IMG/VR virus record: IMGVR_UViG_3300009103_000081
Coordinates: 1 to 37,090 of that record
Source: a virus
DNA: 37,090 nucleotides
Direction: 5' to 3' (one strand)
Both the position numbers and the translations under genes were made by a program. Positions 1 to 28,366 of this stretch are shown here, in pieces (within the stretch, counting starts at the first letter, position 1; every line of letters begins with the position of its first letter). The notes beneath the pieces were generated by a model. It searched no databases and had not been told where the DNA came from. It saw only the letters and a program-made list of their open reading frames with translations.

Positions 1-357
1 GGTTCAACAGGAACCAATATTCACGCTTTCAATATCTACAATACATTAAAACAAGAAATGTTGCTTTACACTAATATTAAAAATTGTAATGCTGTTGTAA
101 ATATGACAGGCGCTGGTCAACAATATTCAGATACACAAATTGCACACTTACCAACAGCACAAAGAACAAGTCCAACTATTTCGCAACCTGCGTCATTAAC
201 AACAGGAGCGGTTGCTAGTTCAAATAGTTTAGAGAGCTATATGTCCACACTTGCAAACACATATAATACTGAAAGAGGAACAACTTATACATTGACAAAA
301 ACTATTTGCCATTCAAGTTGCCACTCTAGTTGCCACGGAAGCAGGAGCAGAAGATAA
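1..357 (+). CDS. 3' end of probable fibre/surface protein with C-terminal CHxS repeat tail (5' truncated by window)
   Basis: The frame is open from base 1, so the gene begins upstream of the window; 118 codons are visible before TAA at 355-357. The visible part is rich in Thr, Ser, Asn and Gln, like a phage fibre or other exposed structural protein. It ends in CHSSCHSSCHGSRSRR (visible residues 103-118): three C-H-x-S units followed by a short basic end. The H-x-S spacing recalls HxsA-type His-Xaa-Ser repeat proteins, which are associated with the radical SAM proteins HxsB and HxsC. Here the period is four residues and includes Cys. The next gene starts on the last base of this stop codon (TAATG), and radical SAM and 2OG oxygenase genes follow, so the tail is a plausible substrate for modification. 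The alternative is that the Cys/His residues simply bind metal, as HxH motifs do at the T4 long tail fibre tip. I do not recognise the upstream family. Confidence 0.75.
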   Translation, partial: GSTGTNIHAFNIYNTLKQEMLLYTNIKNCNAVVNMTGAGQQYSDTQIAHLPTAQRTSPTISQPASLTTGAVASSNSLESYMSTLANTYNTERGTTYTLTKTICHSSCHSSCHGSRSRR

Positions 358-1049
358 TGATTGAAACTATAGTACCAATTGAATTGAAAAATTTAAAAAA
401 ATATTTTGAAGATAAAACTGAAACTTATAATATAGATTATGAAAAGAGTAAATTAAAAGGTGCTCAGTTCTTAACTTATATAAGCAATTTAGATATACCT
501 TGCGATATATCAAACTATGATGATGAATTACTATTAGCATATTTTGAAACACAAATGTTAGTAAATATACCGATGTTAGAAAGAGTTGCTATGCAAGTTC
601 TTTTTGAACATAAAGGTTTAATAAAAAATGTAGTTCACGGTGCTTTTATTTCTCAAAATTTAGAAATAATAGAACAATGGGCAAACAAATTAGAAAGTCT
701 ACCTTTATATAATATGTCTATCATAGGAGAAGGTGCTTTTAAAGACTTTGTTGATAGTTATCCTAAAGACGATAGTAATGATGTAAAAGGTATTAACTTT
801 GTTAGTCTATTGAAACATAAAGATTTTTATTTTTATTATAATAAATCTAACGAAAAGAATGTTAGATACTATACTAAATACTTTACAGAATATATGTTTA
901 AAGGCAAAAGTCTATTTGATTATTGGGGTGTAAAAGAAAACCCTATGTTTTTGATGACTTGGGCAGTTGCCGAAGGTAAATTTGATATTAAAAAATATAA
1001 CCAAGCTAAAAAAGAAGATATAGGAAACTTAAATGCTACACCTGTTTAA
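357..1049 (+). CDS. Unrecognised protein coupled to the CHxS gene
   Basis: This 230-residue protein starts at the ATG at 357, which overlaps the stop of the CHxS gene (TAATG). The frame could also open at TTG 330, but the coupled ATG is more natural. It has many charged residues (Lys, Glu, Asp) and aromatics, with no signal peptide or membrane segment that I can see. No catalytic motif is recognisable. The end of the protein is overlapped by the start of the next gene at 1033. Its place between the possible substrate and the radical SAM enzymes would suit a recognition, scaffold or chaperone role for tail modification, but that rests on position only. Confidence 0.8.
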   Translation: MIETIVPIELKNLKKYFEDKTETYNIDYEKSKLKGAQFLTYISNLDIPCDISNYDDELLLAYFETQMLVNIPMLERVAMQVLFEHKGLIKNVVHGAFISQNLEIIEQWANKLESLPLYNMSIIGEGAFKDFVDSYPKDDSNDVKGINFVSLLKHKDFYFYYNKSNEKNVRYYTKYFTEYMFKGKSLFDYWGVKENPMFLMTWAVAEGKFDIKKYNQAKKEDIGNLNATPV

Positions 1050-2148
1050 TAAAGTTTATTTACAATTTGACGATTCAATAGATTGTCATACACATAGATA
1101 TGTTATTTCCGAAGAAAAAGGAAATCCAATGTTATCAGAATTAGGTAATGCTTATAGAGGCACACTAATTAACTATGCTAAAAATAGAAATGAAATGACA
1201 GGTAAGTTTGATGACTTAACTGGTTTCTTTGAAGATGTATGTCAGAAACAAAAATCATTGAATAGTAAAGTTGTTATATATTGTGATACACAAGCATTTT
1301 TAGAATTATCTGTTATATGGTTAAAAACTATTTTACCTTTTGGCGATAGTGATAGTATTGTTAAATACCTAGACATACATTTACACAACGAAAGAATTAT
1401 TGCAAATACACAATGCCAACCAACACATATTTTAGACTTAACTAAACTAAATGCAGGTTTAGGAAATGTTAAAGGATATGCTGATGTTTTACCTACTTTA
1501 GAATTAGATAGAATCAAAGCGCTTAATTTAAATTTCTCAATTGAATTATTGCTTGGAGAGTATTTTGCTGGTGCTGATACACACGAAGATAATTTACTTT
1601 CTTCTTATCATATGTTCTTACAAAGATTTTATAAAGAAATACTAACAGATGTTAGAGAAGATACTTTATTAAATCTTTTAAATAGGTCGCAACAAACTGC
1701 TGTAGGTTATTCTGAAAGTGATGTTGTAATAAATGCTGATAATCCTTTTGAAGGAATTTCAGAATTGTCTGCCTTTGCTGATGAAGAAGTTTTTACTGCT
1801 AGACCTGTTGCAAATGCTGGATATGTGAATACAATAACAATAGATAATTTGTCAAGTGAAAAACAAACTGCATTAAAAAATTTAATTACTACAATACAAA
1901 CTTTACAAAATATCCCAAATCCAGATTATTCAATGGCACACTTTGACAAGGCGTGTAATACTTCTTTGTCTAAAAGTGATTTTGATACAATAATTAATGA
2001 AGCGGTGACGAATAGTCCATCTTTGGCGTATATTCCAAGATTTGATGTTGGTAATGTTAATTACTCATTTATTCAATATCTTCTTTCTTTAAAGAAAGAT
2101 AATGATTCAGATACACTAGGAAAATACAGACTATTCGCAAACTCATAG
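1033..2148 (+). CDS. Unrecognised 371-residue protein of the tailoring operon
   Basis: The ATG at 1033 lies 17 bases inside the previous gene, and the stop at 2148 is 8 bases before the first radical SAM gene, with AGGAG just ahead of that start. The product has a His/Cys-containing N-terminal stretch (DCHTHRYVI near residue 18) and a middle section with acidic and aliphatic segments (about 120-220). The C-terminal third (about 270-371) looks helical. I see no transmembrane helix, Walker motif or known catalytic signature. Its position directly before a radical SAM gene fits an accessory or substrate-binding subunit, but no function can be assigned from sequence. Confidence 0.8.
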   Translation: MLHLFNKVYLQFDDSIDCHTHRYVISEEKGNPMLSELGNAYRGTLINYAKNRNEMTGKFDDLTGFFEDVCQKQKSLNSKVVIYCDTQAFLELSVIWLKTILPFGDSDSIVKYLDIHLHNERIIANTQCQPTHILDLTKLNAGLGNVKGYADVLPTLELDRIKALNLNFSIELLLGEYFAGADTHEDNLLSSYHMFLQRFYKEILTDVREDTLLNLLNRSQQTAVGYSESDVVINADNPFEGISELSAFADEEVFTARPVANAGYVNTITIDNLSSEKQTALKNLITTIQTLQNIPNPDYSMAHFDKACNTSLSKSDFDTIINEAVTNSPSLAYIPRFDVGNVNYSFIQYLLSLKKDNDSDTLGKYRLFANS

Positions 2149-2156
2149 GAGTTTAA

Positions 2157-3209
2157 ATGCGAGAGTTTTTAATAGACCCCAAAAGAGATCCAGAACAAGA
2201 GTACACAATTCATTTATTTGAATTTTGTAATTTAAGATGTGCTTTCTGTTGGCAAAACCACGATGACACGGTTGGAATAGATACCGTAATCAATAAAATA
2301 GTTCCTGTAGAAAAATTTATCAAATCCGAAATGATGATGAAGGTTGTATTTAATATTATGGGTGGTGAAGTCTTTGCACCTGCAATCTATAACAAAGAAT
2401 TAAATCAAGCATATAAAACTTTATCAAAAGGCATACAAAAGATATGCGAACACTATGAGAAGAAAGTTAGAATTAATTGGGTTACTAATTTGATTATGAG
2501 TGATGAAGGTAATGACTTATTAAGAGATTTATTAAGTTGGTCCGAACACGAAGGTATTGAAGCAACAATTACTACAAGTTATGACCCGAGAGGCAGATTT
2601 AATAAAAAAGATTTAGAACGATTTAAACAACAAGTAATCTATTGGGGAAAAGAAATAAAATCTTTTTCAATGTTAATAACTAAACCAATGATAAAATATC
2701 ATTTAGAAGAAGGCGACCCATACTTCAAACATTTATATAATGAAGGTTATGAGATTTACTTTGATTATTATACACCAGACCAACACGCAAAATATTTTAT
2801 GCCAAGTGATACAGAATTATTTAAGTTCTTTAAGTATATAATAGATAACTATCCACAATGTTCTCCTGTAAGAGAATGGATATTTAACAAAAGAAATTAT
2901 GCTAGTTGTAGAACAAGTAAATTAATATTACAAGATAATACATTATGTCAATGTGGTAATCTTGTACAGGACCCAAAAGATTTAGTAATGTATAGCTCAC
3001 CTATAAAGAAAAAGGACAATTCAATTATTGAAAATAAATTTTTAGAAAAATATAATTGTGCTAGTTGTGAATTTTTAGATAGATGTACTTTAGGATGCTT
3101 TATGAACCACGATTATAAATGGAGGGAAGAATTGGATGAATGTGTTTACAAACTTACGCACAGATATATTGAAGATGTACGAATACAAAGAAACTTTGTC
3201 GCAACCTGA
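2157..3209 (+). CDS. Radical SAM protein with SPASM-type auxiliary cluster cysteines (first of three)
   Basis: The radical SAM 4Fe-4S motif CX3CX2C is at C24, C28 and C31 (FCNLRCAFC), and a GGEV segment that helps bind SAM is at 69-72. The C-terminus holds C251, C264 and C266, then C301-X2-C304-X5-C310-X3-C314, then C329. The CX2CX5CX3C-gap-C spacing is that of SPASM domains, which bind extra 4Fe-4S clusters and occur in maturases of ribosomally made peptides (the anaerobic sulfatase maturase and PqqE groups). At 350 residues its length is normal for that class. The start at 2157 follows AGGAG with good spacing. The substrate cannot be read from the sequence; the CHxS tail encoded upstream is the nearest candidate. 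The last 74 bases overlap the next frame. Confidence 0.9.
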   Translation: MREFLIDPKRDPEQEYTIHLFEFCNLRCAFCWQNHDDTVGIDTVINKIVPVEKFIKSEMMMKVVFNIMGGEVFAPAIYNKELNQAYKTLSKGIQKICEHYEKKVRINWVTNLIMSDEGNDLLRDLLSWSEHEGIEATITTSYDPRGRFNKKDLERFKQQVIYWGKEIKSFSMLITKPMIKYHLEEGDPYFKHLYNEGYEIYFDYYTPDQHAKYFMPSDTELFKFFKYIIDNYPQCSPVREWIFNKRNYASCRTSKLILQDNTLCQCGNLVQDPKDLVMYSSPIKKKDNSIIENKFLEKYNCASCEFLDRCTLGCFMNHDYKWREELDECVYKLTHRYIEDVRIQRNFVAT

Positions 3210-3771
3210 TATTTCAAAACTTAAAATTAATAATACAGACATTGAAATACAATTAGATGAGTTTCCAATTCAAAGACCATTTATACCTAGAATAGATGGC
3301 AGACAAGCACATTTATTTTTATGGTTAGGTAAGAAAGAAGAAGATATTGAAACTTATAATCTAGCAGAAAAGAATATAGGTGAAAAGATGTGGGTACATA
3401 ATAAAACACCTAATACTTTTATAAAAGGTGTAGGTATGTTTCATATCTATGATGATTATGTTATAGTAGGGTCTTTAAAGTATCCTGGTTATATGAGAAG
3501 TAAAAGTCCAGTAGAAAGAAGACACTTAATAAGAACAATGTGGTGTGAAACAATTAATATATTTAAAGATAGAAGAATATTATGTCCTTCTGGTACTTAT
3601 TTTGATTACTTACACTTATCTATGAATCAAATGAAAGCACAAAAGGAACCATATCATAGAGAGATAATGCAACAATTTGGTTTTCATAAAGATGTAATAT
3701 ATGAACACTTTTGGATTAGAGATAAAGATACTACAACTGGTTTAGATTGGATTAAATTATATGGAAATTAA
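3136..3771 (+). CDS. Unrecognised protein between radical SAM and 2OG oxygenase genes
   Basis: The frame gives 211 residues from ATG 3136, which has GGAGGG nine bases upstream but overlaps the radical SAM gene by 74 bases. A later ATG at 3175 would cut the overlap to 35 bases and give 198 residues but lacks a well-spaced ribosome site. The C-terminal half is the more structured part. It has a conserved-looking run with WVHNKTPNTF, an Arg-rich stretch (VERRHLIRTMWCE), CPSGTYFDYLHLS and a closing FWIRD. It gives the impression of a compact alpha/beta enzyme, but I cannot name a family. The stop overlaps the next start by 11 bases, so it belongs to the same translationally coupled set. Confidence 0.75.
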   Translation: MNVFTNLRTDILKMYEYKETLSQPDISKLKINNTDIEIQLDEFPIQRPFIPRIDGRQAHLFLWLGKKEEDIETYNLAEKNIGEKMWVHNKTPNTFIKGVGMFHIYDDYVIVGSLKYPGYMRSKSPVERRHLIRTMWCETINIFKDRRILCPSGTYFDYLHLSMNQMKAQKEPYHREIMQQFGFHKDVIYEHFWIRDKDTTTGLDWIKLYGN

Positions 3772-4339
3772 ATTTACAGATACAATAAATGTAATTGATG
3801 ATTTTTTAACTGATAAAGAATTGATTGGTTGGTTAAAAGATGAAAGTAAAATTGATAGTACAATTAAAGGACAAGATACATTTAATCTTACTTATTCTCA
3901 AAATGAATTTGGTAAGATTGCAAATGCAACACTATTAAATTATTGTGCCTCAAATAATATAGACTATAATAATTTAGAGTTATCTAATTTTCAAAAAGGT
4001 AGATTAAAGAAGTATGATAAGTCTAGTGTGACCAATCATTTATATGAACCACACCACGACCAAGTTGAAGGTGCTTTTATTTCTGCAATCTATTATATAG
4101 AAAGTGATTATACACCTGAAAAATGGGTAGGTGGTGAATTAAGTATATATAAAAATCTAACTTTTGCTGAATATCCTTATAATACAATAAACATTAATCC
4201 TGTGCCTAATAGATTTATAATGTTTCCTGGGTTTTTAGTACATAGAGTTAAACCATACTTCGGAGAAAATCCTAGAACATCTTTAGTATTAGGATGGCAA
4301 GTAAAAGACCAACCAAAGACAGAACCAATATGGATTTAA
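3761..4339 (+). CDS. 2-oxoglutarate/Fe(II)-dependent oxygenase (prolyl 4-hydroxylase-like)
   Basis: This 192-residue protein has the double-stranded beta-helix oxygenase signature. H98-H99-D100 (YEPHHDQVEG) supplies the HxD iron ligands, H161 (FLVHRV) the distal His and R172 (RTSLVLGW) the 2-oxoglutarate-binding Arg. A GGEL segment before the distal His is typical of the P4H-like group. Members hydroxylate protein or small-molecule C-H bonds using O2 and 2-oxoglutarate. It sits between an unknown gene and the second radical SAM gene, overlapping both, so it probably acts in the same process. Whether its substrate is the CHxS protein is inference. It is one of three such oxygenases in the window and differs clearly in sequence from the other two. 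Confidence 0.9.
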   Translation: MEIKFTDTINVIDDFLTDKELIGWLKDESKIDSTIKGQDTFNLTYSQNEFGKIANATLLNYCASNNIDYNNLELSNFQKGRLKKYDKSSVTNHLYEPHHDQVEGAFISAIYYIESDYTPEKWVGGELSIYKNLTFAEYPYNTININPVPNRFIMFPGFLVHRVKPYFGENPRTSLVLGWQVKDQPKTEPIWI

Positions 4340-5418
4340 TAATTAAACCTACTGAATTATGTAATTTCAAATGTTCATTTTGTTCAAGTACTCAATTAAC
4401 AAAAGAGAAAAAGAATTGGTTAAAACACGAACAAATATTTGAGTTCTTAACAAGATTTCCTCATACTAAAACTATTATAGTAAATGGTGGGGATCCTTTA
4501 ATGATGGAACCTGAATACTATTGGAAGATTATTAGATGGTTAGATGAAAGAGACTATGCAACATCAATTTCTTTAACAACAAACTTATGGCCGTTCTTAA
4601 AGAAACCTAGTTTGTGGGTAGACTTGTTTAATGATAAAAGAATAGGAGTAACCACTTCTTTTCAATATGGTGGTGGAAGATTAAAAGGAGACTATTCAGA
4701 ATTTACAGAAGACGACTTTTGGCAATGTTCAGACGCAATGTTAAAGTATTGTGATTATAGACCAGACTTTATTTCTGTTATAACAAGAGAGAACGAACAC
4801 AACGCAATTAAAAATGTTGAGTTAGCAAAGTTTATGTCAGAAGATAACGAGCCAAAAGGTACTTTACATAATTTATATAGAGAAGAAAAGACAGGTGTTG
4901 AATGTAAATTAAACTATGCAATGATGAGTGGTGAGCAAAAAGAACCATTTTTATTATCAGATATATATGAGATATATACTAAAATATATAATCTAGGTTT
5001 AGCACCTTGGGAATTTAATACGAAACAAATGATGTTGACTATTAGTGATTGTAGTACGACTTGTCCTTTAAGTAGAAAGTGTGATGAAGGTATAAGATGT
5101 TTGCAACCCGATGGAGACTATTATAGTTGTGGTGCTTTTGGTGATGATAGAGATAAAGAAATAGATTTTAAAAGAGAAATGAAAGGTGAATTTTTTACAC
5201 CATTACAAGATGACCTTTCATTAAATAGTATGAAACAAGGATGTTTTACTTGTCCAATGTTTAATATATGTAATGGTTGTAGAAAGACAATAAAAGATTA
5301 TCAACACGCTGGAACAATAGAGAAACATTGTGAGAAGATGAAACGAATAGGACCTGATATACTAAAAGCAAATGGAAGTACTTTACAAATGACACCGTAC
5401 ATAAGCGAGGCACGATGA
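4330..5418 (+). CDS. Radical SAM/SPASM protein (second of three)
   Basis: With the ATG at 4330 the radical SAM cysteines CX3CX2C lie at residues 11-18 (CNFKCSFC) after a short IIKPTE lead-in, which is the usual distance from the N-terminus. An upstream in-frame ATG at 4294 would add 12 residues and overlap the oxygenase gene more deeply. NGGDP (near residue 57) is the SAM-binding GGxP-type segment. The C-terminal region has many Cys: CSTTCPLSRKC, CLQPDGDYYSC (CX4GX4C), then CFTCPMFNICNGC (CX2CX5CX2C) and a final Cys. This matches the SPASM layout for two auxiliary iron-sulfur clusters. The protein is about 362 residues, a normal length. Its stop overlaps the start of the next oxygenase gene (ATGATGA). 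Confidence 0.9.
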   Translation: MDLIIKPTELCNFKCSFCSSTQLTKEKKNWLKHEQIFEFLTRFPHTKTIIVNGGDPLMMEPEYYWKIIRWLDERDYATSISLTTNLWPFLKKPSLWVDLFNDKRIGVTTSFQYGGGRLKGDYSEFTEDDFWQCSDAMLKYCDYRPDFISVITRENEHNAIKNVELAKFMSEDNEPKGTLHNLYREEKTGVECKLNYAMMSGEQKEPFLLSDIYEIYTKIYNLGLAPWEFNTKQMMLTISDCSTTCPLSRKCDEGIRCLQPDGDYYSCGAFGDDRDKEIDFKREMKGEFFTPLQDDLSLNSMKQGCFTCPMFNICNGCRKTIKDYQHAGTIEKHCEKMKRIGPDILKANGSTLQMTPYISEAR

Positions 5419-5936
5419 TGAGAAGTGGTTCCAATATAGAAAATGTTTTAATTAATGGAGTTTGGCCTACAGCGGATCCAATGCCATTTAGATTTTTTGA
5501 AGGTGTTGAAATACCATTTAAAGAAATAGAAGGTTACAAAGTAGCAATACATACTCCAGAAGTTGAGAATGCTCTCAAAATGTGCCATACTTATTTGGGT
5601 GATAAATATATTAAACAATTGTCTAACAATTATACTTTATGGGGACAACCAGAAATTATTAATGGAGTAGACAAAGGTTCTTTGAAATGGCATAATGATA
5701 ATAAAGAAGGAGCTAATATAGCTGCTCTTATCTATTTTACTTCTGCAAGTAATCCTGATACAGGAGGACAATTAGAAGTAAGAAGTGCTATTACAAAAAG
5801 TTTATCTGCATACTTGTACCCAGGCAAGACAGATATTATAATATTGAACCACAAAAAACAATGGGAACACAAAGTTGGTGCTTTTAGACCAATAGGTGTT
5901 GAACGAATAACAGGATATTTTGATTATAACATATGA
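5415..5936 (+). CDS. 2-oxoglutarate/Fe(II)-dependent oxygenase (second)
   Basis: The iron ligands are H93 and D95 (KWHNDN) and distal H152 (WEHKVGAF), and R164 (ERITGYF) fits the 2-oxoglutarate-binding residue. A DTGGQLEVR segment precedes the distal His, as expected for the P4H-like fold. At 173 residues it is a minimal catalytic domain. Two adjacent ATGs (5415 and 5418) could start it; GAGG at 5407-5410 is better spaced for 5418. It overlaps the stop of the second radical SAM gene, and its own stop overlaps the start of a 34-codon frame. It probably hydroxylates the same product as the neighbouring enzymes process, or one related to it. That link is from position only. Confidence 0.88.
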   Translation: MMRSGSNIENVLINGVWPTADPMPFRFFEGVEIPFKEIEGYKVAIHTPEVENALKMCHTYLGDKYIKQLSNNYTLWGQPEIINGVDKGSLKWHNDNKEGANIAALIYFTSASNPDTGGQLEVRSAITKSLSAYLYPGKTDIIILNHKKQWEHKVGAFRPIGVERITGYFDYNI

Positions 5937-6037
5937 GTGAATTAGATTTTTTTAAATTTATACAACAGATGGAAAAAGAAGTATACGGTATTACTCCATT
6001 ATTTGAGGATTTAGATTATGACGAAGCAGAAAATTAA
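5933..6037 (+). CDS. Small acidic 34-residue peptide between oxygenase and third radical SAM gene
   Basis: The frame opens at an ATG that overlaps the stop of the oxygenase gene (ATATGAG) and closes 20 bases inside the third radical SAM gene. The product begins MSELDFFKFIQQMEKEV and ends in an acidic stretch, LFEDLDYDEAEN. It has no Cys and no clear core peptide. It may be a tiny accessory protein, a leader-type peptide for the downstream radical SAM enzyme, or a coupling frame that carries ribosomes across the gap. Its place in an unbroken chain of overlapping genes is the only support that it is translated. Confidence 0.5.
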   Translation: MSELDFFKFIQQMEKEVYGITPLFEDLDYDEAEN

Positions 6038-6992
6038 TTTATCAATTAATCCATCTTATCATTGTAATTTTAGATGTTCTTGGTGTTATCTTACACCTGA
6101 GCAATTAGGTGATACTAAAACTATAAGTGATGAAAGATTAAATGAATTACTAGCAGAAGTTTCTGCTCATAGAGAAATTAATCATATTGATTTATATGGT
6201 GGTGAGATTGGTATATTAAAGAAAGAACAATTAAAGAATATAACAGAAGTTATTAGATTATATTATAAAGATAAAATCAATATCAACACAAACCTTTCTG
6301 TATTAAGAGAAGAATTTTTTTATCCTGATTATTATTTAAGTGTTAGTTGGGATATAGAAACTAGACAAGACTATCATAAAGTTAGAGAGAATATGGCAAA
6401 ACTGCCAGTTGACTTTTCTGTATTATGTTTAGGAACAAAAGAAGTAATGTCTCACTCTAAAGAACATTGGTGGACTATGTTTAATAGAATTGACTTTGAA
6501 TCTGCAAAAGCAAATAATGGCAAATCTCATTTTAAAAGTGTAGAATTAAAACCTTATAGTGCTAATCAAGCAAATGACCAAGGAGTAACCCACGCACAAT
6601 TTGAAGATTATGTTTTAGAATTATTAGTACAGGAACCTAGTAGTAAGAAAGGTGAATATGAATTTGTAAATAAAAAGAAAGTAATTGCTTCTTTAAATAA
6701 AGAATACAACGCATTTAGCGATGACCATTTATATATTACACCAAACGGTAAGTTTGCTGTATTAGAATTTGATAAAGATGATAGAGAATACTTTTTAGAA
6801 TTAGATAGTTTTAAAGAATACGAAGATTGGTGTATAAAAGAAAAAGAAAAAACAATATCTCCTATATGTAAAAAATGTGAATATCTAGGACATTGTTTAA
6901 CAGAACATTATCAATATGTAAAAGATTTAGATAATGGTTGTAATGGATATAGGTATCTATTGGATACTTATGAATTTAAATATGGGAAATAG
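6018..6992 (+). CDS. Radical SAM protein with C-terminal cluster cysteines (third of three)
   Basis: The 324-residue product has CX3CX2C at C16, C20 and C23 (HCNFRCSWC) and a LYGGEIG segment for SAM binding. The C-terminus carries CKKCEYLGHC (CX2CX5C) and one more Cys in DNGCNGYR, a reduced SPASM or twitch-like auxiliary cluster site. A HLYITPNGKFAV strand precedes it, as is usual in this class. The middle section has several His and Ser residues (MSHSKEHWW) of unknown role. It differs from the other two radical SAM proteins in length and in its reduced cysteine set, so it probably makes a different bond or acts on a different site. The start at 6018 lies inside the small upstream frame. Confidence 0.88.
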   Translation: MTKQKINLSINPSYHCNFRCSWCYLTPEQLGDTKTISDERLNELLAEVSAHREINHIDLYGGEIGILKKEQLKNITEVIRLYYKDKININTNLSVLREEFFYPDYYLSVSWDIETRQDYHKVRENMAKLPVDFSVLCLGTKEVMSHSKEHWWTMFNRIDFESAKANNGKSHFKSVELKPYSANQANDQGVTHAQFEDYVLELLVQEPSSKKGEYEFVNKKKVIASLNKEYNAFSDDHLYITPNGKFAVLEFDKDDREYFLELDSFKEYEDWCIKEKEKTISPICKKCEYLGHCLTEHYQYVKDLDNGCNGYRYLLDTYEFKYGK

Positions 6993-7776
6993 AGCATTTT
7001 GTATTGGCAACGGTCAAAGTAGAAAAGGTTTTAATTTAAAAAATTTAAAATCTCGTGGAGTAATAGTAGGTTGTAATTTTCTTTATAAAGATTTTGCACC
7101 AGATATATTAGTTGCAACTGACCATCCAGTTATGCACCACATTTATAACTCTGGTTATTCTTATACTGCTAAATGTTATTTTAGAGATTGGATGAAAATA
7201 CCACAAGAAAATTTTGAGAATATGATAACAGGTTTCTTTCCTGACTATAGACATTTAAGAGCAATAAGAAAGTCTGGTCATCTAATAGAAAATAGTAGAG
7301 CAGGTTCAAATGAATTTGTATTACACGGATATAATGATAAAGAAACTGGAAAGAATATGGTATGTGTAAGTTGGTGTACAAAAGATTATGTCTATAATTT
7401 GACAGACATAATAAAGGATCCAGAACAAACTGGTTGGGCAACTGGTCCTGCAAGTGGTTATGTTGCTTGTAAGACGATTAATAATATGAAAGAAGTATAT
7501 TTAATTGGACACGACTTCTATAGTATGGGTACAGGATTTAATAATGTATATAAAGGACAACCTTTCTATAAATCAGATACACACCCTAGTAATTACTATA
7601 TACAGAATTGGATATTGCAATGGAAAAAATTGTTTAGATGGTATCATCATATTAAGTTTTATAAAGTAAATAGAAAAAGTTATTTAAATATCAAAATTCC
7701 TGAATGGGAAGATTGTAGAAATTTGGAGTATATAAGCTATGAAAGAATGGAAAATCAAACAAGAAGTCTACCATAG
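6982..7776 (+). CDS. GNG/GHDF-motif Rossmann-like protein, possibly glycosyltransferase-related
   Basis: The likely start is ATG 6982, overlapping the radical SAM stop; the frame is open further upstream but that part is only shadow. The protein (264 residues) opens with AFCIGNGQSRKGFNL, a glycine-rich loop after a beta strand. It continues with GCNFLYKDFAPDILVATDH and later carries VYLIGHDFYS. This pattern is shared by a group of phage and bacterial proteins that resemble MptE-like (DUF115) and sialyltransferase-type nucleotide-binding folds. I infer a nucleotide-sugar or pterin-type substrate but cannot name the reaction. Its inclusion in the radical SAM/oxygenase run raises the possibility that a glycosyl group is added to the modified product or to a virion surface protein. 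Confidence 0.75.
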   Translation: MGNRAFCIGNGQSRKGFNLKNLKSRGVIVGCNFLYKDFAPDILVATDHPVMHHIYNSGYSYTAKCYFRDWMKIPQENFENMITGFFPDYRHLRAIRKSGHLIENSRAGSNEFVLHGYNDKETGKNMVCVSWCTKDYVYNLTDIIKDPEQTGWATGPASGYVACKTINNMKEVYLIGHDFYSMGTGFNNVYKGQPFYKSDTHPSNYYIQNWILQWKKLFRWYHHIKFYKVNRKSYLNIKIPEWEDCRNLEYISYERMENQTRSLP

Positions 7777-8176
7777 ATTAAATCCTACTCACTCGGATAT
7801 GTTAATGGATAAAGAAATATCCTTAATATGGGATGAACAAGAGACGGTACGATTTGCCATTAAACATTGGCACGAAAGGGTAGATAAGTTTATATATCCA
7901 GCAAAGAGTTATTGCGTAGCAGTTTGTTATGCAAAGTGGATTGAGAGAGATTATGGAGATAATTTTTGGGACTTATTAAATGACCCAAATTTATTGTATA
8001 GTAATGACCCTTACTTTGAAGTATATAAAGATAAGAAGCATATATACAATCCTATTATATCAGCTTTTCCTGAAGATGAAAGTCAAGGAATGATACCTGA
8101 TATTAGGGATTGGTATGAAAAAGAAATAAAGTACGATACAGGTATTAGTATAAATAGTAAATATAAGGAGAAATAA
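7739..8176 (+). CDS. Unrecognised protein, last gene of the tailoring run
   Basis: This 145-residue protein starts 38 bases inside the previous gene, with GGAG about nine bases upstream of ATG 7739. It is rich in Trp, Tyr and charged residues (SLIWDEQETVRFAIKHW, NFWDLLNDPNLLY) and contains no recognisable motif or membrane segment. Its last codons contain a T4 late-promoter octamer (8149-8156), so its 3' end doubles as the promoter of the virion genes that follow. Confidence 0.75.
   Translation: MKEWKIKQEVYHRLNPTHSDMLMDKEISLIWDEQETVRFAIKHWHERVDKFIYPAKSYCVAVCYAKWIERDYGDNFWDLLNDPNLLYSNDPYFEVYKDKKHIYNPIISAFPEDESQGMIPDIRDWYEKEIKYDTGISINSKYKEK
8149..8156 (+). promoter_or_regulatory. T4-type late promoter TATAAATA inside the end of a gene
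   Basis: Exact TATAAATA, 22 bases between its end and the ATG at 8179. T4-like phages use this octamer as the whole recognition site for late transcription by host polymerase with gp55. It marks the point where the tailoring run gives way to virion genes. Confidence 0.75.
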
Positions 8177-8841: not shown

Positions 8842-9099
8842 GTGTCTCAAATAAAAGCTAGAATAGACTCAACAATTAGTAGACCTCAACAAGTATCGGT
8901 TACTATGCCTGCTGGAGCAGCGTCTCAAACTGCTGTAACCAACGCAACATTAAAATTTAGACTATTAGCTGATGTAGACTCGTCTACCCTGGCTGATGGT
9001 TCTATGATTCAGTATTCTGCAACAAGTGATAAGTTTGTTGTAAGAGACGAAATCACAACTACAACAGGTTCTATAACTTTAAATGGTGGTTCATTTTAA
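8842..9099 (+). CDS. Small virion structural protein ending in GGSF
   Basis: This 85-residue protein starts at GTG 8842 with GGGAGA well placed upstream. The sequence is Thr/Ser/Ala-rich with beta character (RPQQVSVTMPAG, ATLKFRLLADVD) and ends TGSITLNGGSF. The same closing GGSF ends the next, much larger protein. It is probably a fibre- or baseplate-associated protein. The family is not named with confidence. Confidence 0.75.
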   Translation: MSQIKARIDSTISRPQQVSVTMPAGAASQTAVTNATLKFRLLADVDSSTLADGSMIQYSATSDKFVVRDEITTTTGSITLNGGSF

Positions 9100-9115: not shown

Positions 9116-10855
9116 ATGGCAACAATAATACGAATAAAAAGAAGTGCTAACACAACCGCTCCTAGTACACTAAAACTTGGAGAATTAGCTTTAACTTATG
9201 GAACTGGAACTGCTGGAAATAATGGAGATAGATTATTTGCTGGTACAGGTGGGGTTGATGGAAATGGTGACGCAAATGATATTGATGTAATTGGTGGTAA
9301 GTATTTTACAAGTTTATTTCCTACAACAAACGGTGTAGTTGGTTCAGAAAAATTAATAACAACAGATTCAAATAACAGAATTGACCAAATGGTATTTGGT
9401 AACTCAAATACTGATTCAGGTCAAATTACATTTAACGAAGCATTAAACAACGGTTCAAACAATGTTGTTTTAAAAGCTCCGTTATCATTAACAAATTCAT
9501 CTACACTTTTATTACCTGATGGTGCTGGAAGTGCTGGACAATTCGTAAAAGTAACCTCGGCAAGTGGTTCAGAAGCACAATTAGGTTTTGCTGATGTTGA
9601 TACAACATTAACTTTAACTGATAGTACTGGAACATCAATTAACTATTCAACTGCTGACTCTTTATTACTTACAGGTGATGGAACAATTGATACTGCCGCT
9701 ACTGCGAATACAATTACAATTAAAGTACAAGACGCTTCAATTGGAACAACTCAACTTACAAACTCTGGTGTAACCAATGCTAAATTGGCAAACGATAGTG
9801 TTACCATTGGAGGAACTGCTGTTGAATTAGGTGGTTCTGCAATAACAGACCTTACAAGTTTAACAAGTGTTGTTGTTGATGACTTAACTTTAAATGGACA
9901 AGATGTTTCAACAACTGCTGGAAACAAAGACATTACTTTAACTCCACACGGAACTGGTGTTGTAACCGTACCTAGTGGATATAAAGATAGAGCAGGTTTT
10001 GGTGCTGACGCTTTAGCTACTAAAGAGTATGTTGATGGATTTACTTCAGGATTAGATGTTAAAGATAGTTGTAGAGTTGCTACTACTGCTAACTTAACGG
10101 TTACTTATGACCAAACAAACAAAAGATTAGATAATGCTGGAACACAGGCCGCTTTATCAATAGATGGTGTTACCTTATCAGTTAACGATAGAGTATTAGT
10201 TAAAGACCAAACAGAAGCAAGACAAAATGGAATCTACAAGGTAACAGATGTTGGTTCTAACTCTTCTAATTGGAGAATGGAAAGAAGTTCCGATACTAAT
10301 ACAGGTGCTCAATTAACTGGTGGTTCATTTACTTTCGTTGAAGAAGGAACTGCTAATAGTGATAATGGTTATACATTTACTCACAATGGTATACCAACAC
10401 TAACAGACAACACATTATCTAACAATACAGAATTACCAGTATCACAATTCTCGGGTGCTGGACAAGTAGTAGCTGGTGCTGCTCTTGTAAAAGCTGGGAA
10501 TACTTTAGATGTTAATGTAGATGACGCTTCAATCGCTGTTGTGTCAGACGCTTTACAAGTTAAAGCTGGTGGTATTACAAATGCGATGTTGGCAGGAAGT
10601 ATTGCTAACTCTAAACTTGCTGATCCAAGTGTTTCACTTGCTGGTGAATCTGGAACAGGTACGGTTAGTCTTGGTGGTACATTAACTTTTACTGCTGGCG
10701 AAGGAATTGATACGACTGCTTCAGGTTCTGCAATTACTATTGCTGGTGAGGATGCTACAACAACAAATAAAGGAGTTGCTTCGTTTAGTACTGATAACTT
10801 CACGGTAACAAGTGGTGCCGTTGAGGTTACTACTATTGATGGTGGGTCGTTCTAA
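9116..10855 (+). CDS. Tail fibre-like virion protein (579 residues)
   Basis: The N-terminus (IIRIKRSANTTAPSTLKLGE) matches the kRS...P..L..GELA start of many phage fibre proteins. The middle is made of repeats that read as stacked beta strands (TLLLPDGAGSAGQFVKV, TAGNKDITLTPHGTGVVTV). A module at about 295-430 begins ATKEYVDGFTSGLDVKDSCR and includes DQTNKRLDNAG, VNDRVLVKDQTEARQNGIY and WRMERSSDTNTG; this module is widespread in phage fibres. Short repeats (DDASIAVVSDALQVKAGG, ITNAMLAGSIANSKL) follow, and the protein ends TIDGGSF. It is probably trimeric and part of a side or long fibre. The next gene starts two bases before the end of this stop codon region, in direct continuation. Confidence 0.88.
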   Translation: MATIIRIKRSANTTAPSTLKLGELALTYGTGTAGNNGDRLFAGTGGVDGNGDANDIDVIGGKYFTSLFPTTNGVVGSEKLITTDSNNRIDQMVFGNSNTDSGQITFNEALNNGSNNVVLKAPLSLTNSSTLLLPDGAGSAGQFVKVTSASGSEAQLGFADVDTTLTLTDSTGTSINYSTADSLLLTGDGTIDTAATANTITIKVQDASIGTTQLTNSGVTNAKLANDSVTIGGTAVELGGSAITDLTSLTSVVVDDLTLNGQDVSTTAGNKDITLTPHGTGVVTVPSGYKDRAGFGADALATKEYVDGFTSGLDVKDSCRVATTANLTVTYDQTNKRLDNAGTQAALSIDGVTLSVNDRVLVKDQTEARQNGIYKVTDVGSNSSNWRMERSSDTNTGAQLTGGSFTFVEEGTANSDNGYTFTHNGIPTLTDNTLSNNTELPVSQFSGAGQVVAGAALVKAGNTLDVNVDDASIAVVSDALQVKAGGITNAMLAGSIANSKLADPSVSLAGESGTGTVSLGGTLTFTAGEGIDTTASGSAITIAGEDATTTNKGVASFSTDNFTVTSGAVEVTTIDGGSF

Positions 10856-11614: not shown

Positions 11615-12112
11615 ATGGCATTAGCATTAGCAACAGGAGCTTCAACCGCTGTAGGAGTAGACGCTGCTGGTTTTCAGATTTCAAATGAATACGCTATGCA
11701 CGCCCTAAACCGTGATGTTAATGGTCTTTTAATTTACACAAAGACTAAACTTGATAGTACTGATACTATTGATGTTAACGACGGACAAGGTTTTGGTTAT
11801 AATGGTTTTGAAGGACTTGCAATAGGTAAAGCAAGTGATGGTACTACCGTTCAGAATACACTACAAAGTGATTATGATGAGAGTACAGACGACCATTATC
11901 AAACAAATGCTAAGTTTAGAAAGTATCAACAGGTTAGATTTGACCCATTGAAACTTTTTTATTTTATTAATGATGAAGGAATGTTAGTTGCGAGATACCA
12001 ACACGACTATACATATGCTGCTACAGAAACGGCAACTTCAACAACTGGTAATAACTGGATACCCGCTGGTGGCGTTTATTATACACAGGCCAATCAGGAA
12101 AGGTATTTGTAA
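11615..12112 (+). CDS. Virion structural protein of marine T4-like phage type
   Basis: This 165-residue protein begins MALALATGASTAVGVDAAGF and contains HALNRDVNGLLIYTKTKLDS, GQGFGYNGFEGLAIG, and KYQQVRFDPLKLFYFINDEG followed by LVARYQHDY. Sequences of this layout are found beside fibre genes in marine T4-like phages and are annotated as virion structural proteins. It has GAGGAA upstream and is first after the tandem late promoters. It may be an attachment or adaptor protein for the large fibres encoded next. Confidence 0.75.
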   Translation: MALALATGASTAVGVDAAGFQISNEYAMHALNRDVNGLLIYTKTKLDSTDTIDVNDGQGFGYNGFEGLAIGKASDGTTVQNTLQSDYDESTDDHYQTNAKFRKYQQVRFDPLKLFYFINDEGMLVARYQHDYTYAATETATSTTGNNWIPAGGVYYTQANQERYL

Positions 12113-12137
12113 AATTAAAAATTAGAGAGAGATAAAA

Positions 12138-15100
12138 ATGGCAGATTTTATTTTAGGTAGACTTAAATTTCACTTCAAAGGTGATTGGGTTACCGCAACC
12201 GCTTATATTAAAGATGATGTTGTAAGATATGGTGGAAATAGTTTCGTTGCAATGGCGAACCATACATCTTCAGCAGCTTTTGAAACAGACCTTACATCAA
12301 CAAAATGGAAAAAGATGGCAGCTGGGCAAGACTGGAAAGGTGCTTGGGCAGCTACTACATTTTATAAAGTAGACGATGTTGTACAATGGGGAGGTTCTAC
12401 CTTCGCTTGTAATGAAGCACACACTTCACAAACAGACTTATATGACGATACATCAAAATGGACATCTTTTGTTCCAGGATTTGCTTGGAAAGGTACTTAC
12501 ACAAATGGTACTGCTTATAAAGTAAATGATTTAGCAAAATATGGTGCAAATGTTTATATCTGTACCGTAGAACATACTGCCGCTTCTACAATAGATACTG
12601 CTAAATTTGCTTTATTCGTTTCAGGATTAGAATTTGAAGATTCATACAACGCTGGAACAGCTTATCAAGCTGGAGACATTGTATCTTATGGTGGATACAA
12701 TTATGTTGCTGTAGTACAAAGTACTGGCGAAACACCATACAACAATGCTACTAAATGGGAAATTTTAACAACTGGTTATAAGATGGTTGGTACCTATGCA
12801 GGTGCAACTGCTTATAAAACTGGTGATGTAGTCCAATATGGTGGTCACACTTATGTTGCAAAAACAGACGCAACAGGTGTTGTTCCAACAAACACTACAA
12901 ATTGGGATTTATTAAACGAAGGTTTAAAATGGAATGATACTTGGGCAGACGCAACTGCTTATGCTCCAGGTGACGCTGTTGCTTATGGTTCATCTTCTTA
13001 TAGATGTAAATTAGCACACACTTCTTCTGCTGTCGCTGGTGACGCTAAAAGACCAGATTACGATACTGGTGGAGTTTATTGGGACTTACTTGCTGAAGGA
13101 GATTCAAACTTCGTAACCACAACTCGTGGAGATTTATTAACTAGAAACGCAACACAGAATGTCAGATTACCTATTGGTACAACTGGCTCAATGTTAAAAT
13201 CTGATGGTACAGATGTTGCTTGGGCACTTGCTCAAACTAATGACAATGTATATTTTGTTGCACCTCACGGTACAGACGCTTTACCAAGTAGTGATACTGG
13301 TAGAGGAACTTCTTTAGATAAACCTTGGGCAACAATAGCATATGCTTGTAATTGGATGAAAGACACAGGTAACTCTGGATTAGATTACACGGTTACGGTT
13401 ACAAACACAACAATATTTACAATTACTTTAGCTACTTCAAGTTATGCTCACACTTATTCAAGTGGTGGTACGGTAACTAAATCAGACTATAGTACACTTT
13501 CAATTTCAGACGCTCCGTATAACAACTCAACAGGTGTGGTAACAATTACTACTTCTGCTGTTCACGGATTAACAACAGGTGATAAAGTTAAATTATCTGG
13601 AATAGTTTATACTTGTTCTGAAGGAACTAAAACTTATCCAAGAGATACGGTTAATAAAACGCTTTATGTTAAAACTGGAACATATTCAGAAGCATTACCA
13701 ATTGTTGTTCCTGCGAACACACAAATTATTGGTGATGGAGTAAGAAGTACAAAAATTAAACCTGCTTCAGGAAATTCAACTGCAAGTGGTCTAACTAACA
13801 CACCTAACGCAAGAGCTGATATGTTTAGAGTTAGGGATGGAGTGACGATGACTGGTATGACTTTCTCTGGAATGTTAGGAACTATGGGTGCTGCTGACGC
13901 AAATGGCGTAGCAAGACCAAATACTGCTGACGGTGCTACTCGTTCAGGTGTAGTTATCGCTTTAGACCCAGGTACAGGTACTACAGACAATTCTGCTTGG
14001 ATTGAATATAAATCTCCATTTATACAAAATTGTACACACTTTGGAACTGGTTCAGTTGGTATTAAGATTGATGGTTCACTACACGGTGGTGGATATGCTT
14101 CAATTCTTGCAAACGACTTTACACAAATTTCAAGTGATGGTATTGGTGTATGGGCATTATCAAATGCTAAATCAGAATTAGTATCAGTATTCACTTATTA
14201 CTGCCATCACGGTTATTTGGCTGATAGTGGAGCTGTTATCAGAAGTTTGAACTCTAACAACTCTTATGGAGAATATGGTTCAACTGCTGCTGGTATTGAC
14301 GCTTCAGAAACACCTTATACAGGAACGGTAGATTTAAGAAACAACGAAGCAAGAGTAGGAAGAGTATTAATTGCTGGTTCAGGTATTGGAAGATTAGAAT
14401 TTGAATACGCTGGGGAAAGTTATTCTTCTGCCACTATTGCGTTTGCTGGTTCTGGTGCTTCAGGTGCCGCTACTGCTTCATTTAACGATGGTGCTGTAAA
14501 ACATATTAAAGTTGCAACAAATGGTTCAACTCACTTTACAACTTCAGGATTTGCACAATCAGGAACTTCAACTACATTAAAACTTGCTGCTTCTGATTCA
14601 CAACCAGACGATTTCTATAATGGAATGAGAATAAATGTTTATACTGGAACTGGTTACGGTAATACTGCAATCATAACTGACTATGTTGCTTCTACAAAAA
14701 CTTGTACGGTACAAAAAAATAATGGTACTGCAGGTTGGGATGTATGGGTAAACTCTGGTTTATCTTCTGCAACAACTTTTGATACAACATCTGGTTACGA
14801 AATAGAACCAAGAGTGACTATTTCTGGTGGTGGTTCTCCAACAAGAGACGCACTCGCTAGAGCTGTTGTAGATAATCAACAAATTTCAAAAATTTATATA
14901 TTAGACGGAGGTGCTGGTTATTCTTCTGCACCAACGGTAACAATTACAGACCCTAACGCTTCAACGGTTGGTACTGCTACTTCTGAAATAGGAGATGGAG
15001 TAATATCACAAACAACGGTTGGAACTGCTGGTTCTGGATACAAAACAGAAACAACAACTGCTACTATATCTGGTAATGGTTATGCTGAAATATCAAGTGA

Positions 15101-16149: not shown

Positions 16150-19100
16150 ATGGCAACAACAAAAACTAGAATTGGAAATCTGTTCTTCAATTATCAAGGA
16201 GAATATTCAAGTACAAAAACATATTATAAAGACGATGTTGTTATGTACAACAACACAGATTGGATTTGTACAAAGAATTCTGCTACAACGGGAACTGCTC
16301 CAGTAGACAATCAAAGAAGATATGTCAGAATTACTAAAGCTGTTTCAGCTAGTACAGGTTCTAACGCATATAAATGGGATGGTGAAGCTGCTTGGCCTCA
16401 ATCAGAAGTACAATATAAAATTGGTGATACTTTAGTTTTACACCAAGATGGAAACGATTTTGATGATAACAAAATTGCTTTTTCAGATTCATCTACAAAC
16501 AAAAATACAAATTTATACCACAAAGATGTTACCTATTTCTTAAATGGTAAAGCTGTTGGTGCTGGTACGGCAACTAATGAATATTTTAATTCATCAGCTT
16601 TTAACAATGCTACTAAAAGAGAAATTAGAATAGATTTTACAAGTGAAACACCTAAAGAAATTTATATGTTTAACTATGATAATCCAAGTGCCAATTGGGG
16701 TCCTAAAATAGTTGTTGCTGACCATTCAATTTGGAAACCGATTAGACAATCATTTAAATGGAGAGGTGAACACGATAACACAAACGATAGTGGTTCATAT
16801 CAAACTTATTACACAAATGACATAGTAAGAATAGTTGTTCCTTTAGATAACGACTTTTCTGAAACGGTTATGGACCAAGAGCATATTCAATCTGCAAGAG
16901 CTACTTATATTTGTATAAGACAGCACACTTGCGATGGTACAAGTAAGTTTTTACCTTGGGACCAAGAAGTTGATACAGACGACAATAAGTATTGGGAAAG
17001 AATTTCAGAAGAAATGCAATTTGATGATGAGATAGTTGAAGATAGTGGAGCTGTTGCTACAATTACAAACATATCTGCTGCTTCTCCAAGTAGAAAACAA
17101 GGATTTTACTGGTCTGTTAATTCTAAAAACATAACTGCCGCTGCTGAAAACTCAAATGCTGGTAGAACAGGTGGATATAATCCTCCAATGTTTGATGTTG
17201 AAGTAGAAGGTTATCAATCTGCAAAAACTTGGACAATTGAAACAAGTGCTCATTACAAAAGAAAAAAAGGAAAATACAATAATGTAACCCATACTTCTTC
17301 AAGTGGTGGTGGTTCAAACTCCTATTGGGATTTTGAAGTTGATATGGAAGGAAAAGTAATCAAAGCTGTTCTTACGAAGAAAAATCTTGGTGGTGATATG
17401 GGTGGATTAGGATATGCTGTTAACGAAGAATTAACTTTTGCTGATTCAAGTTTCGGTGGAGGTGGTGCTCCAGATGTTGTATTAAAGATTACTGCAATAG
17501 GAACTTGGGGTGCATTAAACATTAATTTAGCCAAAGACGATAGACAAGGAAGACAATACGCACAATGGTATAACGATAATGAAGCACCAGTATTTGGTGG
17601 AGAAAATAACGCTACTAATGACCAATTAGGATTTGATGGACAAATATTTTATTCTTCTTCAAATGTAACCTTTGATGTTGCAAGTACAAGTAAAAAAGCT
17701 AGAGGTTATGCTACAAGATTTACAGGAAACAGATTAGAGTGTATGTCTCTATGTAATACAAATGGTCCAATTGGAGACGATAACAAGTATTACAGATTAC
17801 CTGGACAATTCCAACAAGCTAATTGCGTTAACTGGCCGTGTTTTATTAATGGTCGTGGTGGTATTACAAGTTGGGGTTCAAACTCAAATGGACAAAACGG
17901 AATTAATCAAGGTTCTGTATTAATGGGAGTTGGAATGACTTTCCCATTTACAGATTGGTATAGAAGTACAGATAACGGTGGTAGTGGTGTTCATACTACT
18001 CCTGATGGAGAACCACCTAAAGCACTTCAATTAATATCTGGATATGAAAGTGGTATGGCATTATTTAATAATGGCGAAATATACCATTGGGGTTACGGAG
18101 GTCACGGACAAAGTGGTGACGCTGCTACTTCAAATAGAAGTTATCCAGTAAGATGTGGTGGAACATATCAGGAAGTTTATCTTGCTGCTAACACTTCAAC
18201 ACACACTTTAAAAGATACAAAAATTAAAAGAATATGGGTTACTAATTGGGGCGGAGACAATAACACAAATACACACTCTTGTTATGCGTTAGATACTGAC
18301 GGAGAACTATGGGCGTGGGGTTATAATGGTTATGGTCAATTAGGACAAAACAATACTACAGACTTAAACAGACCAACTAAAATTAACAAGACTTCTTACT
18401 TTAATGGTAATAAGATTCTTGCTTTCTGGACTGCTGGGGCAGGATACGCTTTCTGTTTCGCTTTAGATACTGCTGGAAAATTATATAGTTGGGGTTATAA
18501 TGGATATGGAGTACTTGCTCAAGGTAACACAACAAACTTATCAGTACCAACTGAAATAACTGGTGTAACCTTTGATAATGGTTCTTCAAACGCTGGTACA
18601 ATTAAAAAATTATTAGTTGATTCTCAACAATCATACCAAAGGGTTGCTGTTCTTACAGACAAAGGTAAAATATATTGGTCTGGAAGAAATGAATATGGAT
18701 GGGCGATGATGGGAAATACAACAGATGTTAATACATTTACTCAAATGTCTGGTGGACCTGGAAGCGGAACTAATTCATATTGCGCTAATATGTGGTTTAC
18801 TGGAAATGGAAGATACGCAAGTTTCTGGACTAAAGATAGTACAGGTGCTATAAAATGTTGTGGTTACAATGGTTCTTATGAATTAGGAATTGGAAATAAC
18901 AACAACCAATCAAGTGCTGTTGATCCTAAATGGCAAATTAATGGAACAACAACTGCTGATTTAGAAAATATTAAAGACATTGGTTGTAATAGTGAATATG
19001 GTAACCAATGGTGTTGTAATGTATGGGTATTAACTTACGATGGATTTATGTTTAATACTGGAAGAAATAACCACGGACTTGGATGCCAAGGTTGGTCTTC

Positions 19101-27672: not shown

Positions 27673-28366
27673 AATATGGAATATGCTTGAAGAAACTACC
27701 ACTTTAATTATGGCAGTTTTTGAAAGAGAAGGTAAAGAAATATTTGAACCAACTATGGAAAAATTTAATCGTCCAAAAGACGGTTGGATTAATAGAGTAT
27801 GGGAAACACCAGAAGCAAGAAGATGTCATTTAGATGTTGTGGATGCTAGAGCAACAAAAGGTTTATATATGTTTCATTGTTGTGTATTTCCTAGACTTAA
27901 TAGTCCAGCACCAATATATGGACTAGATGTAATTGCTGGTGCAAAAAAGGTTACAGGTTTCTTCCACGACTTTTCTCCACTTGCAAAGAGAGACCATTCA
28001 ATGGTTGATTGGTTTGTAAAAGAATCAAGTAATTATAAACCATCTAAAGTGAGAGAACTACCTGAATGGGCATTAAAAATTTTTAGTCCAGGTATGGTAG
28101 CTGCTAGTAATATAACTACTGAAAAAGAATTAAATCACGCTTTGAGTTTATCACAATGTAATTTAGGTGCTTACTTTACATTATTAAGACGAGAAAAAAA
28201 TAACAAAACAGATATAACGGAGCAAGAAATAAAAGACGCACAAAACAGATATGCTAAACATCAAAGAGAAAATCCTCATACACCTAGAGTTATGAAATCA
28301 CTTGGACTACCTGAAGACGATGTAAAAGAGTTTTGTACTAACGCATTATTTCCATATGTAGAATAA
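27650..28366 (+). CDS. pcyX: Ferredoxin-dependent bilin reductase, PcyX-like
   Basis: The ATG at 27650 follows AGAGG with good spacing and gives 238 residues, the usual size of PcyA-type enzymes. [20 protein letters not shown] contains H76 and D93, 17 residues apart, matching the catalytic His88/Asp105 pair of PcyA. The FPR and P-I-Y-G-x-D pattern is diagnostic for ferredoxin-dependent bilin reductases. Such enzymes take electrons from ferredoxin to reduce biliverdin. The marine phage group PcyX, described from uncultured oceanic viruses, makes phycoerythrobilin, and the neighbourhood (HO and ALAS, in a non-cyanobacterial myovirus) favours PcyX over PebS or PcyA. The exact product cannot be settled from sequence by eye. 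No ferredoxin gene lies in this window. Confidence 0.9.

Follow-up and report, generated by a model that had tools for sequence, protein, structure and literature searches.

The last residues of a small viral protein and the conserved set of enzymes encoded beside it suggest an undescribed system by which a component of a viral attachment structure would be chemically remodelled. The window, a stretch of 37,090 nucleotides (IMG/VR record IMGVR_UViG_3300009103_000081), would hold most of a conserved cassette maturing one protein. We consider it probable (roughly 0.62) that this is a protein of the fibre or baseplate module, whose flexible tail is covalently remodelled by the cassette in a RiPP-like manner with the body retained, and which has a role in attachment or assembly. 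The features of the cassette in the window are as follows.

1..357, + strand: 3' portion of the CHxS-tailed gene, encoding 118 of the 260 aa (complete in L223:8220-9002)
307..354, + strand: C-terminal tail CHSSCHSSCHGSRSRR, three C-H-x-S units and R-x-R-R, with the stop directly after
357..1049, + strand: F20767 (PHROG 20767, a family without assigned function), conserved partner encoded immediately after the tailed gene
1033..2148, + strand: uncharacterised cassette protein of 371 aa, found at 62 of the first-set loci
2157..3209, + strand: radical SAM protein rSAM_A, CX3CX2C core and SPASM signature CX2CX5CX3C
3136..3771, + strand: uncharacterised accessory protein, 211 aa
3761..4339, + strand: 2OG-Fe(II) oxygenase 1, conserved H98xD100...H161...R172
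4294..5418, + strand: rSAM_B, core and auxiliary-cluster cysteines CX2CX5CX2C
5415..5936, + strand: 2OG-Fe(II) oxygenase 2, conserved H93xD95...H152...R164 (below the Pfam cut-off, triad kept)
6018..6992, + strand: rSAM_C, core and conserved C-terminal cysteines
6934..7776, + strand: accessory protein of PHROG 30607 (a family without assigned function), found at 4 of the first-set loci
7739..8176, + strand: F20737, small conserved protein, the last gene of many cassettes

The window starts inside the tailed gene, and ORF 1-357 is open at its 5' end; its C-terminus reads TICHSSCHSSCHGSRSRR followed by the stop codon. The complete gene is present in contig L223, which is 99.98% identical to the window over 9,575 bp. 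The preliminary description had taken the product for a large virion protein, but the full length is only 260 aa (124-309 aa in relatives). In the AF2 model the body has pLDDT of about 93 and the last 10 residues about 54; the body is thus modelled with confidence as a folded domain, unlike a short leader peptide. Foldseek against PDB with the body found no relative, and no function was assigned to the protein by Pfam, PHROGs or NCBIfam. A tblastn search of 50,697 phage records produced no match, though jumbo phages carry the protein, which we attribute to divergence of the body and low-complexity masking of the tail.

The tail consists of 16 residues with the pattern CHxSCHxSCHxSRxRR before the stop codon, and the three C-H-x-S units originally noticed at the protein end are indeed there. 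The window has a single match to this pattern; none of 100 dinucleotide shuffles has one. Beyond the window, at least 118 IMG/VR stretches and five isolated jumbo phages carry it; a control pattern with CH swapped to HC had one match, versus at least 119 for the real tail. Matches in L129, L132, L139 (genome contigs) and L031 (IMG/VR) were set aside as chance occurrences in unrelated frames. In an alignment of 66 relatives (A3) mean column identity is 25%, and no column is invariant apart from those of the tail's three Cys, three His and three Arg. The codons differ while the residues stay constant, with both serine codon families and both codons of Cys and His in use. In the aligned sequences, conservation sits in the tail rather than in the body. 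A looser regular expression yielded 187 distinct tails, 184 of them with exactly three consecutive CH.. units, including six with an extra H unit in front. The distinct tails contain three to four H-x-[S/N] units, with rSAM genes alongside.

Such a tail could be a metal-binding tip that undergoes no covalent change: in (perhaps trimeric) copies, its clustered Cys and His would take up Fe, Zn or Cu, and the enzymes would have other targets. Phages with iron-binding His-x-His spike tips are known, Cys and His of the tail alternate invariantly at fixed spacing, and the bodies hold only about 0.5 Cys each. However, this would not explain why the tail is linked almost exclusively to several rSAM and 2OG enzymes, nor the S/N position, nor the Bdellovibrionota tail G158, with one Cys retained but four HSS units. 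We regard a simple metal tip as unlikely. A cytochrome c reading was rejected, as the motif is CxxxCH, not CxxCH, and the enzymes would be left unaccounted for.

Downstream of the tailed gene, the near-continuous gene chain of the preliminary description extends to position 8176 (gaps from -74 to +81 bp). Its three rSAM proteins with auxiliary-cluster cysteines and its two 2OG-Fe(II) oxygenases also hold: the cysteines are conserved in relatives, and so are the HxD...H metal triad and the Arg in both 2OG enzymes. The protein at 6934-7776, initially called glycosyltransferase-like, has no support for this from Pfam or NCBIfam and matches PHROG 30607. Upstream of the tailed gene, beyond the window edge, L223 contains genes for a cupin with an HxD...H triad and for a fourth rSAM protein. 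The CX3CX2C core is invariant in the alignments of rSAM_A, B, C and D. The SPASM signature CX2CX5CX3C is found in rSAM_A and rSAM_D, a variant CX2CX5CX2C in rSAM_B, and a reduced set of cysteines in rSAM_C; the SPASM domain of rSAM_D (TIGR04085) scores 28 bits at a cut-off of 27. The AF2 model of F20767 has pLDDT 92.9 and no match among PDB folds at E <= 0.001. Neither F20767 nor the 1033-2148 protein received a function from Pfam, PHROGs or NCBIfam, and a PDB sequence search with the alignment of the latter gave only weak scattered matches. rSAM_B is 49-59% identical to its homologues in five cultured jumbo phages. Several phages carrying the cassette, among them Atu_ph07, FLC6, SURPRISE13 and pPa_SNUABM_DT01 (DT01), are already in culture.

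The relationships of rSAM_D are those of a peptide maturase: its NCBIfam relatives are the DynA, HxsB and PapB models, and it is related to solved rSAM maturases, including the anaerobic sulfatase-maturating enzyme. Together with the repeats in the C-terminal core, this is what would be expected of a classical RiPP, in which the tail would be cleaved to give a small free peptide, antimicrobial or signalling, during infection. On the other hand, the body is modelled as a confidently folded domain with virion-type insertions, the tail gene is packed tightly against giant fibre genes, and Pfam, PHROGs and NCBIfam recognise neither a peptidase nor a transporter in the cassette of the window. No recognised leader-binding domain was found, nor was the combination that defines a RiPP cluster (short leader-core precursor, protease, exporter). 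Release of a free peptide seems improbable.

As a refutation of its own reading, the preliminary description named rSAM genes that occur regularly in related phages without a tailed protein, and the reading withstood this test. All 70 phage rSAM_D loci that extend 1 kb or more downstream have, as the next gene in that direction, one with a CHx[S/N] tail. For rSAM_B, 55 loci extend 8 kb or more upstream, and in 52 of these the tail lies within the fetched stretch; L200, one of the three without it, has tandem-type tail genes elsewhere on the same contig (L077). An rSAM gene was found downstream of the tail in all 59 tail loci with at least 4 kb there, a count that takes in the DT01_058-type rSAM of L060. 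Since the first collection scan demanded the R-x-R-R end, tail statistics taken only from that scan carry a bias, which the rSAM-based test avoids. The 70 and 52 loci support an rSAM/2OG set carried by phages and dedicated to the tailed protein.

The same pairing occurs in bacterial chromosomes, in some relatives of predatory bacteria. rSAM_D was found in 10 of 192 Bdellovibrionota genomes searched, nine of them with a CHx[S/N]-type tail (degenerate in G071); the tenth cluster, which has no tail, sits at a contig end. Two of the tails are period-3 His-x-Ser/Asn repeats. In four Bdellovibrionota genomes, S74-chaperone fibre-like genes lie no more than about 15 kb from the cassette; these neighbours have a prepilin N-terminus and not a signal peptide.

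The rSAM enzymes of marine viromes have been counted as metabolic genes (PMC7150976), and those of DT01 were assigned to DNA repair or metabolism (PMC8541153). In line with this, the enzymes might be auxiliary metabolic or nucleic-acid-modifying genes, and the tail a mere docking tag or hitch-hiker. But this fits poorly with the SPASM-type cysteines and the similarity to peptide maturases, with a tail gene that adjoins at every one of the 70 loci despite strongly diverged bodies, and with the identical pairing in bacterial chromosomes; we find little reason to expect it.

Proximity to fibres and baseplate is also supported. The tagged gene lies downstream of baseplate wedge, giant and tail-fibre-like genes; the inserted domain of the window's family matches baseplate-wedge and tail-fibre PHROGs; and tandem-type tail genes begin within a few bases of the ends of giant fibre-like genes. 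In Atu_ph07 the published virion-protein cluster "CDS 170-215" starts at gp170 (PMC6102473), which is the CHxS protein (L005); the main text of that paper does not name gp170. It is very unlikely that the modified tail makes an intracellular redox or peptide cofactor protein of the infected cell and not a virion part: the presence of the cassette in bacterial chromosomes would agree with this, but the placement in a structural module, the virion-type domain, the tight coupling to fibre genes and the Atu_ph07 cluster boundary would not.

Under the preferred reading, covalent remodelling of a retained protein, the substrate would be a small folded protein of the baseplate/tail-fibre module, and the target its flexible C-terminus (C-H-x-[S/N])x3-R-x-R-R. 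The rSAM enzymes with SPASM-type cysteines (three to six or more), at least two 2OG-Fe(II) oxygenases and the cupin may act on the tail before or during assembly, with F20767 as a dedicated partner presenting the tailed protein. Plausible chemistry includes cross-links at Cys and His and hydroxylation of His, Ser/Asn or Arg. Since the body would be retained, the product would be a protein with a hardened or metal-binding tip, not a free peptide. The modified tip, probably located in the virion, may serve attachment or fibre assembly. A more specific possibility, somewhat short of an even chance, is an undescribed viral surface chemistry, namely an enzyme-made non-canonical Cys-His-x-Ser/Asn cluster at the attachment tip, forming a stapled or metal-cofactor-bearing adhesin. 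Equally tentatively, such an adhesin, in phages and some Bdellovibrionota, could be invisible to ordinary sequence-based tools.

Searches of open-licence papers for HxsA-D, phage RiPPs and virion rSAM modification turned up no description of the tail or the cassette, and a survey of jumbo phages never mentions radical SAM (PMC7824862). If correct, the proposed system would give a single explanation for many orphan phage rSAM and 2OG genes filed as metabolic in viromes, bring side-chain chemistry made by enzymes into phage host recognition, and connect phages with Bdellovibrionota by a shared cassette, near fibre genes in both.

Among known systems, the T4-type distal fibre adhesins, such as gp38 of T2, are similar by description, being small proteins encoded directly after a large fibre gene; to our knowledge, no enzymatic modification of their tails is known. 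The Campylobacter phages CP220 and CPt10 are T4-related phages with an rSAM-rich module of 11-12 genes (PMC2853527); they were retrieved by none of the four cassette rSAM queries, on which this comparison rests. The MAT fibres of Bdellovibrio (PMC10769870) resemble the present case in that the cassette lies near fibre-like genes, a link by proximity only. The rSAM/SPASM RiPPs (ranthipeptides, dynobactin, TvgA-type repeats) share SPASM enzymes and a repeated C-terminal target motif, and are sometimes accompanied by a 2OG enzyme, TvgC (PMC9062424). Here, however, the putative substrate is a folded protein of 124-309 aa in a viral structural module, no peptidase or exporter is recognised, and there are more rSAM enzymes per cluster. 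Of the original interpretation, the dedicated enzyme set and the proximity to fibres and baseplate stand, whereas the size of the protein and the assignment to the HxsA-D family do not: HxsB (TIGR03978) scores 35.9 bits against a curated cut-off of 370 and HxsC (TIGR03977) 32.1 against 267.9, both far below. The 260-aa protein has no NCBIfam match to HxsA at E <= 0.01, and no match to HxsD at E <= 0.01 was found in ten proteins scanned, a set outside which the 2OG proteins and F20737 fall. The phage system further differs from HxsABCD in its other rSAM families, of which there are at least four, in its 2OG oxygenases and cupin, in the Cys that precedes most His, in a fixed number of three units with the RxRR end, and in its occurrence mainly in phages. 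What the two have in common is a C-terminal His-x-Ser repeat protein beside more than one rSAM/SPASM maturase, and the bacterial relatives found here show period-3 HSS repeats in the tail (L326).

The window comes from a T4-like marine myovirus (fragment length 37,090 bp) whose terminase is 71% identical to that of Pelagibacter phage Mosig. It contains the following genes of radical SAM (rSAM) proteins, 2OG-Fe(II) oxygenases and their neighbours.

5' end open, first ORF: tailed protein, stopping after CHSSCHSSCHGSRSRR
357-1049: F20767, partner protein
1033-2148: 1033-type protein
2157-3209: rSAM_A
3761-4339: OG1, oxygenase
4294-5418: rSAM_B
5415-5936: OG2, oxygenase
6018-6992: rSAM_C
7739-8176: F20737, small protein ending many cassettes

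The tail, three C-H-x-S units and R-x-R-R before the stop, occurs once in the window and in none of 100 shuffles. The ten genes after the tailed ORF, up to 8176, overlap for the most part and include three rSAM proteins and two oxygenases, as the preliminary description had reported. The near-identical contig L223 (99.98% identity across 9,575 bp) reaches further upstream and yields the complete tailed protein of 260 residues. Directly upstream of its gene are genes of a fourth family, rSAM_D, and a cupin, and beyond them genes of 433 aa and more than 1,700 aa. In L226, a close relative, a baseplate wedge protein, a giant PHROG_358 protein and a tail-fibre-like protein come, in that order, ahead of the cassette.

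The cassette enzymes would target the tail, while the body of the tailed protein would stay attached; we give this combined explanation a probability of about 0.62. It had been considered that rSAM genes might regularly occur in related phages without a CHxS-tailed protein. The loci examined do not bear this out. Eighty rSAM_D loci were retained, 70 of them with at least 1 kb of downstream sequence, and in all 70 the next gene downstream is CHx[S/N]-tailed (53 strict tails, 17 with Asn at the fourth position of a unit). Starting from rSAM_B, a tail was found within the fetched stretch in 52 of 55 loci; the misses are L200-L202, among which the L200 contig alone was checked, and it carries tandem-type tail genes elsewhere (L077). 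Wherever a tail locus has 4 kb or more of sequence after it, an rSAM gene is found there (59 of 59, L060 counted).

In an alignment of 66 relatives with mean column identity of 25%, the sole invariant columns lie in the tail: three each of Cys, His and Arg. The tail draws on both codons for Cys, both for His and both Ser codon families, and the bodies outside it have about half a Cys each. AlphaFold predicts a fold for the tailed protein (mean pLDDT 92.7) and flexibility for its tail (last ten residues 54).

The cassette is present in five jumbo phages that are in culture: Phosso, Atu_ph07, SURPRISE13, FLC6 and pPa_SNUABM_DT01. In each, a protein of 178-306 aa with the same tail precedes an F20767 homologue, adjoining or one gene apart. 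FLC8 has rSAM homologues; the tail counts cover the other five. Four cassette rSAM queries against INPHARED retrieved the same jumbo-phage records and one extra weak match for rSAM_C. In IMG/VR, the tail pattern matched at least 119 stretches, versus one for a control with His and Cys swapped; almost all matches listed are ORFs with the stop directly after R[G/S/A]RR.

The main layout is cupin, rSAM_D, tailed protein, F20767, 1033-type protein, rSAM_A, oxygenases, rSAM_B, rSAM_C, F20737. In the second, a giant fibre-like gene of up to 2,830 codons comes first, and two tandem tailed proteins of 124-140 aa, starting no more than a few bases from where it ends, are followed by other rSAM genes. 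An rSAM homologue of 570-579 aa with a weak match to the cobalamin-binding (B12-binding) domain was found in 63 loci (e.g. L305:12569-14281), inside many cassettes; this match hints at C-methylation or similar chemistry. Among individual loci, L054 has two differing long tailed proteins in tandem in a main-type cassette (11753-12679, 309 aa; 12685-13464, 260 aa), L121:7832-8512 has the tail region in duplicate, CHSSCHDSCHSNVVCHSSCHDSCHSARGRR, and two dihydrofolate reductase genes lie within the cassette of SURPRISE13 (L006:10855-12032) and likewise of FLC6.

In Bdellovibrionota MAGs the cassette sits amid ordinary chromosomal genes, which on reading the sequence we take to be, for example, SecA, cytochrome oxidase and methionyl-tRNA synthetase. 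Five of the MAGs were tested for a PHROG_2 terminase, and none was found. A profile search detected rSAM_D in 10 of 192 Bdellovibrionota genomes; nine have a tail gene in or beside the cluster, and the remaining cluster sits at the end of a contig. The tails have the usual form, CHSACHDNCHSSRGRR, CHSNCHSNCHGSRGRR, or one of the following.

L323, near 8317: degenerate tail FICHSNCYTPPPKSRSRR, beside the rSAM_D cluster of a Bdellovibrionota genome
L326:4310-4918 and L327:13562-14170: bacterial period-3 His-x-Ser/Asn tails CHSSHSSHSSHSSRGRR and CHSNHCSHSNHGSRGRR

The period-3 forms point to H-x-[S/N] as the core unit, most Cys being additions, and are a possible bridge to His-Xaa-Ser repeats. Prepilin-S74-chaperone genes lie within about 15 kb of the cassette in four of the rSAM_D Bdellovibrionota genomes, and none were found near it in the other regions examined; this nearness may be coincidence. 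S74 fibres belong to Bdellovibrio adhesins termed MAT (PMC10769870), but these differ at the N-terminus from the genes by the cassette.

In the window's subfamily (257-260 aa), a domain inserted at about residues 45-141 matches baseplate-wedge and tail-fibre PHROGs, and the model of the tailed protein matches, somewhere along it, viral structural proteins in BFVD. The CHxS protein of Atu_ph07 is gp170, and the numbering agrees for the gp140 tail sheath. In Atu_ph07 virions 131 proteins were found, "CDS 170-215" being one of three clusters (PMC6102473), which suggests that gp170 may be among those detected.

Elsewhere in the window's fibre module, consecutive proteins (8842-9099, 9116-10855) share a GGSF end (TLNGGSF, TIDGGSF), possibly a common C-terminal signal, and large proteins at 16150-19368, 19401-23489 and 23950-26145 match PHROGs named regulator of chromosome condensation (RCC1-like). 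A ferredoxin-oxidoreductase-like gene on the same fragment (27554-28366, phrog_7278) could be an electron source for the rSAM enzymes.

The SPASM signature CX2CX5CX3C is present in rSAM_A and rSAM_D; rSAM_B has a close variant and rSAM_C fewer cysteines. HxD...H is retained in OG1 and OG2. The cupin retains H129xD131...H169, weakly matches JmjC_2, a family that includes His and Arg hydroxylases, and is a putative oxygenase. The gene at 32255-32935, flanked by the tail sheath stabilizer and the small terminase, has a match to phrog_274, whose label is DNA endonuclease V. Since OG1 matches it too, phrog_274 may be mislabelled and may instead comprise 2OG oxygenases.

Peptide maturases are among the best NCBIfam relatives of rSAM_D, every one of which scores far under the equivalog cut-off. 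The cassette would work like a His-x-Ser/RiPP maturation system, but curated models place it outside HxsA-D, with which it had been compared.
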